A stretch of DNA of 64,000 nucleotides, taken from Zavarzinia marina. Lineage in GTDB: Bacteria; Pseudomonadota; Alphaproteobacteria; Zavarziniales; Zavarziniaceae. Shown here one piece after another: positions 77-1,059 of this stretch; position 1 is the first letter of the stretch, and each line of letters starts with the position of its first letter. The notes beneath the pieces are model-generated. The model was given only the letters and a program-made list of their open reading frames with translations. It was not told where the DNA came from and searched no databases. Both the position numbers and the translations under genes were made by a program. The stretch spans positions 930,001 to 994,000 of the forward strand of contig NZ_JAKGSB010000001.1 in assembly GCF_021568905.1 (NCBI RefSeq), given 5' to 3'.

Positions 77-166
77 GGTTGGGTGGCCGAGCGGTTTAAG
101 GCTCTAGTCTTGAAAACTAGCGACGGGGCAACCCGTCCGTGGGTTCGAATCCCACCCCAACCGCCA
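77..166 (+). tRNA. tRNA-Ser (anticodon UGA)
   Basis: A class II tRNA of 90 nt including an encoded CCA. The acceptor strands GGTTGGG (77-83) and CCCAACC (156-162) pair. The anticodon arm reads CTAGT-CTTGAAA-ACTAG with anticodon TGA. A long variable arm (CGACGGGG/CCCGTC) identifies serine, and the T arm is GTGGG-TTCGAAT-CCCAC. The gene borders an AT-rich accessory segment, which fits the common use of tRNA genes as integration sites. No duplicated tRNA 3' end was found nearby. Confidence 0.97.
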
Positions 167-219: not shown

Positions 220-1059
220 CTAGCCCGGTGTGCGGCTTTTGTCAGCAGGAGGGTAGGCCCGAGTAGGCGCATCGGGATCAATTACGCCCCACCTACTCTT
301 TTCATAGTCAAGCAATGGCCTCCCCAATAAAGAAATTACGCCACTTTCTTTATTTGGCCAATAGACGCCAACCGGAACAGCATTTGCGTGTTCATAGATC
401 TTAACAATTTGAACAGGTCCGCCAACGCTCTGGTATTTTTTACATCTTATTATATCCCTTAGAATTTCAAATGGTTCCATATCAAATGAACCGGAAGTCA
501 ATTTTCCATTTTTCCTTAATAAGGAAATAATCATATCATTGGCAACATTTCGAACATCCTTATCGCCTATTATTGATATAAATTTATGAGAATTTCCCCC
601 CTGACCTCTTTTCCATTCATGTATTGGTCGAAATGTGAATTTATCAATAGTTTGGTTGTAGTGAAGCTTCCAAGCTCTAAAATTTTTATCCCTCCAAGAA
701 TACCCACTTAGCATAAATTCGACTTCCGGCTTATCCGGTAATTTTTGCCCCCGAGGAAGACCTGTTATAAATTTTCTAGAATGATTAAAAATTCTAAGCA
801 AATGACCCTTCAATTCAGCAAGATCAAGGACTCTATTTTCTGCCGGCTCGTACATTTTAATAGAATTATAAGCCTGCAATATTAACGGATATGCATCGGA
901 TGTGCTTCCCGCAAATGATATTACGGCGTCTGTCCTCGGCAATAGTATAATTTTTGGGTTCGAATCCCAATATTGCCCGCCAGATAGACGACTATCAGAT
1001 GCAATAATTAACTCCCGTATCCCGCCGACGGCCCGTACCCACACCATTCCAAGTGTCAT
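220..1059 (-). CDS. Proteasome/HslV-like Ntn-hydrolase family protein, horizontally acquired
   Basis: A 279-residue protein whose N-terminus resembles proteasome beta subunits and HslV. It begins Met-Thr, so methionine removal would expose a catalytic Thr1. An ASDSR segment follows (Asp22, matching proteasome Asp17), then SNPKIILLP (Lys36, matching Lys33), and SFAGSTSDA resembles the central glycine-rich strand. It is longer than HslV (about 175 residues) and has no HslU-type ATPase beside it. The gene is strikingly AT-rich against GC-rich neighbours, with many ATA, AAT and TTA codons, so recent acquisition is likely. It stands alone next to tRNA-Ser. The fold is inferred from motif spacing only; the substrate is unknown, and a defence or regulatory protease are both possible. 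Confidence 0.6.
   Translation of the reverse strand: MTLGMVWVRAVGGIRELIIASDSRLSGGQYWDSNPKIILLPRTDAVISFAGSTSDAYPLILQAYNSIKMYEPAENRVLDLAELKGHLLRIFNHSRKFITGLPRGQKLPDKPEVEFMLSGYSWRDKNFRAWKLHYNQTIDKFTFRPIHEWKRGQGGNSHKFISIIGDKDVRNVANDMIISLLRKNGKLTSGSFDMEPFEILRDIIRCKKYQSVGGPVQIVKIYEHANAVPVGVYWPNKESGVISLLGRPLLDYEKSRWGVIDPDAPTRAYPPADKSRTPG

Follow-up and report, generated by a model that had tools for sequence, protein, structure and literature searches.

A gene for a proteasome-like protein stands by itself beside a tRNA gene in the alphaproteobacterium Zavarzinia marina, in DNA far richer in A+T than its surroundings; what is this protein, how did its gene come to be there and what might it do? We approached these questions within a window of 64,000 nucleotides, which is the whole stretch of DNA that was analysed. 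The gene, at 220-1059 on the reverse strand, specifies 279 amino acids with an ATG start and the N-terminus MTLGMVW. In 500 shuffles of the same composition the longest open stretch had a mean of 82 and a maximum of 198 codons. Because the frame exceeds these values and has homologues in many phyla, we regard it as a real gene and rejected a misannotated or chance ORF. The relevant features are:

77..166, forward strand: tRNA-Ser(UGA), marking the insertion site (ARAGORN; synteny)
220..1059, reverse strand: gene for a proteasome/HslV-like Thr-type Ntn peptidase homologue, 279 aa (homologues, alignment, AlphaFold model, Foldseek)
1054..1056, reverse strand: codon of Thr2, the predicted N-terminal nucleophile after Met removal (proteasome Thr1); invariant in 38/38 homologues
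994..996, reverse strand: codon of Asp22 (proteasome/HslV Asp17); invariant, in register with HslV in the profile alignment
952..954, reverse strand: codon of Lys36 (proteasome/HslV Lys33); invariant, in register with HslV Lys33
907..909, reverse strand: codon of Gly51 (equivalent of oxyanion-hole Gly47); invariant, FAGST aligning with HslV FAGGT

A preliminary description of this DNA had noted a strongly AT-rich gene adjoining a tRNA-Ser, and both observations hold: its GC content is 40.8% against 66.9% across the window, the lowest value for any other 840-bp stretch (among those starting beyond position 1200) being 59.6%, and ARAGORN identifies the neighbour as tRNA-Ser(UGA). The island on which the gene was said to lie is not visible; a single foreign gene sits between the tRNA and other genes. 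It is the sole copy in the host genome, and its predicted promoters were no better than chance level.

A protein of predicted proteasome fold, distinct from HslV

An AlphaFold2 model of the window protein, built on an alignment of 32 family members, reached a pLDDT of 91.5 and a pTM of 0.90, and a Foldseek search of the PDB with this model retrieved 20S beta subunits and HslV with a probability of 1.00 and E about 1e-8. The alpha-beta-beta-alpha Ntn fold proposed in the preliminary description is hence strongly predicted. The first helix pair is present in the model and the loop between helix 3 and helix 4 is short (11 residues). The surplus length relative to HslV would be accounted for by an elongated beta hairpin (about residues 126-145) together with an extension at the C-terminus (about 225-279), a placement read from predicted secondary structure and not from a superposition.

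The catalytic residues fall where the preliminary description had placed them. Thr2, Asp22, Ser23, Lys36, Arg42, Asp44 and Gly51 are all invariant in the 38 of 38 aligned homologues, which come from 8 phyla, and when the family profile is compared with solved HslV structures, Asp22, Lys36 and the motif FAG[ST]T line up with Asp17, Lys33 and FAGGT. Judged by eye, the equivalents of the second-shell proteasome residues Ser129, Asp166 and Ser169 are not conserved in the family. Every homologue begins with M/V/L-T, and the open frame upstream is short or lacking in nearly all of them, consistent with removal of Met by methionine aminopeptidase to expose the Thr. HslV acquires its N-terminal Thr in this way. 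The self-processing ascribed to the protein can at most consist in such a removal of Met, the propeptide being absent.

Fold, catalytic residues and profile matches agree in making this a proteasome/HslV-like protein, and the question becomes whether it is simply HslV. It shares with HslV the Thr after Met, Asp17, Lys33, the oxyanion motif FAG[ST]T.DA and the fold, but HslV is a subunit of about 175 aa encoded together with HslU, whereas the window protein has 279 aa and no HslU beside it. The excess, put at about 100 residues in the preliminary description, comes to some 93 when measured against HslV as encoded by the host (a frame of 186 aa); that frame and HslU lie together on contig 13 (C13:164736-166561), an ordinary pair, elsewhere in a genome in which, as had been remarked, no unfoldase partner adjoins the gene under study. 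Profile scores also separate the two. Among 385 sampled genomes of the window's class, true family members were present in two, with 371 (the window protein) and 178 bits, and all other matches scored about 29 bits or less; four of the latter were inspected, of which two were directly readable, both HslV. These two score classes point to a rare, discrete family significantly related to HslV, and on all these grounds we rejected an identity as HslV. The family profile matches HslV-like proteins of other genomes with E down to 3e-7, nearly all through residues 11-77, and in the PDB sequences it matched HslV crystal structures (best E 2e-4), with no Anbu or BPH chain among the matches of that search. 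Profiles were needed for this, a PDB search with the single protein giving only weak matches (E 0.1-1). With 20S beta subunits the protein shares the fold (Foldseek E about 1e-8) and the catalytic set, but it has neither a propeptide nor an alpha subunit. It falls below the PF00227 gathering score (17.1 vs 22.4 bits), and 3 of 37 family members match that model at E<0.1, the best at 0.0009. No family among the PADLOC 2.0.0 models matches the window protein up to E=10.

Fuchs, Alva and Lupas (2021; PMC8665760) described 22 new uncharacterised prokaryotic proteasome-like subfamilies, whose genomic contexts, by their account, gave no hint of function; these likewise have Thr1/Asp17/Lys33 and no AAA+ partner, and some have been spread by phages. 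The window family may be one of the 22, for instance of the DAH or PMI type. A match to PMI-4, compared by description only, is not supported, the helix 3-helix 4 loop being short here.

Distribution and mobility of the family

A first scan of genome contigs with the window protein alone yielded no match. Scans combining a pattern with tblastn recovered 28 family loci in GTDB genomes of Pseudomonadota, Actinomycetota, Acidobacteriota, Bacteroidota, Balneolota, Myxococcota, Planctomycetota and Chloroflexota, and five contigs in IMG/VR (four at first, the fifth later). By tblastn, eight records of a plasmid collection carry the gene, in hosts from Agrobacterium to Lactiplantibacillus, and the annotated phage genomes yielded no homologue. 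The gene is absent from 59 relatives of the host, five congeners among them. In E. coli a near-identical copy occurs in 126 of 5426 complete genomes (about 2%); the three copies that were read (L010, L171 and L172) stop at codon 192, ahead of the conserved EPFE motif, and this copy looks like a widespread remnant. That in L010, on an E. coli chromosome, adjoins a tyrosine recombinase gene. One Klebsiella copy is split. The family is rare and patchy across phyla.

Several observations bear on how such a pattern arose. At 33 of 36 loci the family gene is lower in GC content than the flanking DNA, and the family tree mixes phyla. The window protein groups in this tree with five other sequences (support 100/99), including the copy in a Paracoccus prophage (L011 = L019), and all named hosts of the group are Alphaproteobacteria. 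At tRNA-Ser(UGA) itself, gene order on the housekeeping side is common to three congeners, and the side that carries the peptidase gene differs in each of them. One congener (L055 in genome G001) has just downstream of this tRNA an unrelated AT-rich single gene of 164 aa (MSDENDIFGAGRDSNIDEF...), and another has a different AT-rich stretch on the variable side. The presence of a different AT-rich gene at the same position in L055, where no integrase was identified, suggests that the site is a small integration hotspot. Adjacency to a tRNA is not general in the family, a further case being L042 with a tRNA-Met about 220 bp upstream. The recent transfer suggested earlier is borne out by the low GC content, the absence from 59 relatives and the mixed-phylum tree, and the evidence supports the view that the window gene is a mobile single-gene cassette that recently entered beside tRNA-Ser.

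Two repeats at this end of the window may be recorded here. An exact 15-bp repeat, TGGGTTCGAATCCCA, occurs at 140-154 (T-arm of tRNA-Ser) and at 955-969 (peptidase codons 31-35, WDSNP); considered as an att site, it is probably due to chance, because conserved coding (the W-D motif) forces part of the match. At 2205-2350 lies a relic CRISPR of three 29-bp type I-E-like repeats (CGGTTCATCCCCGCGCCTGCGGGGAACAC), spaced 61 and 56, of which the middle one is degraded; there are only two near-intact repeats in the whole genome.

Restriction operons, a prophage slot and other neighbourhoods

Clustering of neighbouring genes revealed few recurrent partners; most loci lack a conserved partner gene, and no dedicated unfoldase is conserved beside family members. 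One positional pattern is seen in two type I restriction-modification (R-M) operons, one in an Anaerolineales MAG of the Chloroflexota (L034) and one in a deltaproteobacterial MAG (L037), both with the order hsdM-hsdS-peptidase-hsdR and a 4-bp overlap of the peptidase gene with hsdS. Homology between the two loci is limited to these four genes, with identities of 73% for HsdM, 71% for HsdR, 63% for the peptidase and 33% for HsdS. The difference between the last two values indicates that the cassette regularly retains the peptidase even as its specificity subunit varies. These were the only R-M-linked family members found, and there is no HsdR in the window's host genome, so the R-M link cannot explain the window copy, for which we rejected control by type I R-M. 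An accessory gene inside a type I R-M operon recalls the anticodon nuclease PrrC, whose gene forms part of the EcoprrI operon and which is set free once the restriction enzyme has been neutralised (PMC3874165, PMC2610378). PrrC, however, is an ABC-ATPase tRNase, unrelated to the Ntn peptidase, and whereas it is embedded in EcoprrI, most members of the peptidase family, including the window copy, stand alone.

The Paracoccus prophage (L011) carries its peptidase gene between a head-tail gene (phrog_6367) and a gene for a 139-aa protein, after which come a minor tail gene and the tape measure gene. Two metagenomic relatives, L013 and L080, have the peptidase gene in the same slot, L080 starting inside that gene and so showing only the downstream flank. 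The proteins flanking the slot in L013 and L011 are 71-80% identical, but the peptidases only 37%, and the latter belong to different well-supported clades of the tree. Similar flanks around divergent peptidases from separate clades indicate that the family has filled the slot at least twice independently. All 73 related prophages with both flanks have the slot occupied, and in all 73 its GC content is under that of the flanks (mean 0.554 vs 0.683). The contents amount to about 50 unrelated gene families, an approximate count resting on a longest-ORF rule. Pfam domains among 46 occupants include HEPN (3), NYN, HipA, Schlafen AlbA_2, RES, NERD, GIY-YIG, DUF3800 and ParE; cation (metal) efflux, sulfate transport, redox and GST genes also occur there, which shows that the cargo is not always defence. 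The slot resembles the hotspots of antiviral systems in P2/P4 prophages (Rousset et al. 2022; PMC9122126) in being a small hypervariable locus with diverse cargo between two conserved phage genes; it differs in belonging to alphaproteobacterial prophages and in lying between head-tail and tail genes. It is likely to be a source of undescribed defence genes. The slot, from the phrog_6367 gene to the 139-aa gene (L081-L160), characterises a large alphaproteobacterial prophage family, and its cargo is mostly single-gene, with many occupants resembling nucleases or toxins.

Elsewhere, a homologue of the Gabija protein GajA and a helicase gene adjoin the copy on an Agrobacterium plasmid, and the copy of Rhizobium phaseoli has a GajA homologue nearby. 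A Klebsiella plasmid copy has LeoA/LeoBC dynamin-like genes beside it, and two copies adjoin Abi_C proteins; there is one case each of an overlapping PIN protein gene and of a weak HEPN match ahead of the family gene. Some loci have housekeeping neighbours (UvrB, S9 peptidases). The defence-type neighbours constitute an association, given without a P value or a random background. Of the earlier suggestion of a defence or regulatory protease, it is this association that stands, made up of type I R-M, the prophage slot, Gabija, LeoA/BC and Abi_C. Literature searches that joined proteasome-like proteins with defence or R-M yielded no description of such a system.

Possible functions

The fold, catalytic residues and mobility being supported as described, we infer a defence function and the kind of substrate; what is new in the evidence is the position in R-M operons, the cargo slot of the prophages and the occurrence as cargo beside a tRNA. 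On balance we lean towards the stand-alone Thr-dependent Ntn peptidase being an effector in conflict between mobile elements. In the proposed mechanism, methionine aminopeptidase would remove Met1 and leave Thr2 free to attack a peptide bond, with Asp22, Lys36 and the oxyanion position of Gly51 completing the catalytic set of the 20S proteasome and HslV. The enzyme would act without a dedicated AAA+ unfoldase, possibly forming a small homo-oligomer directed at a single specific substrate or a few of them, or alternatively with a housekeeping unfoldase as helper. It would serve as a weapon between mobile elements, in phage defence or superinfection control, and would be kept in check until infection, its target being a phage or host protein. 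In type I R-M operons it may be an R-M-guarded effector like PrrC, and the window copy, whose host genome lacks a type I R-M partner, would respond to another trigger. That we are dealing with a new class of immune effector, a single unfoldase-independent protein silenced by type I R-M or another sensor, released upon infection and cleaving a phage or host protein, is a tentative proposal, which we put forward as possible rather than probable. If true, proteasome-fold peptidases would join the bacterial immune effectors; the many orphan proteasome homologues reported in 2021 came with no functional clue, and the contexts seen here offer a concrete and testable function.

Other readings place the protein outside such conflicts or give it a different part in them. 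It could be an accessory fitness peptidase, carried as cargo for protein quality control or stress and with no role in conflict between elements. The efflux, sulfate transporter, redox and GST genes that share the prophage slot would suit this, as would the UvrB and S9 peptidase neighbours, and ATP-independent clearance has been discussed as a possible role of the homologues (Fuchs et al. 2021; PMC8665760); yet type I R-M operons of two phyla have kept the family, and it is rare, patchy and fixed in no lineage. We consider this reading unlikely. The R-M operons admit a regulatory interpretation too, in which the peptidase degrades or restrains the restriction complex (restriction alleviation) and is not itself an effector. 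Its gene lies between hsdS and hsdR in overlapping frames, and there is a precedent in ClpXP, which acts on EcoKI HsdR in restriction alleviation (PMC4231737). With just two R-M-linked members, most others, the window copy included, having no adjoining type I R-M, and with no HsdR in the window's genome, such a role is decidedly improbable for the family.

Slightly less probable again is a sequence-specific protein ligase or processing enzyme comparable to connectase, an archaeal proteasome homologue that is monomeric and specific (PMC8665760), in place of a degradative protease. The existence of such enzymes and the lack of an unfoldase linked to the family speak for it, and the predicted extra strands and C-terminal extension (about 126-145 and 225-279) could prevent rings from assembling or provide a binding site for a partner; against it, the first helix pair, missing in connectase, is present in the model of the window protein. 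We regard it as very improbable that the window copy is a functionless passenger undergoing decay: E. coli copies that stop at codon 192 and the split Klebsiella copy show that such decay occurs in the family, but the window frame is unbroken and retains all of the invariant residues, and in two close pairs of members elsewhere in the family dN/dS is 0.05 and 0.08, values which, for these two pairs, indicate that the protein is under purifying selection.
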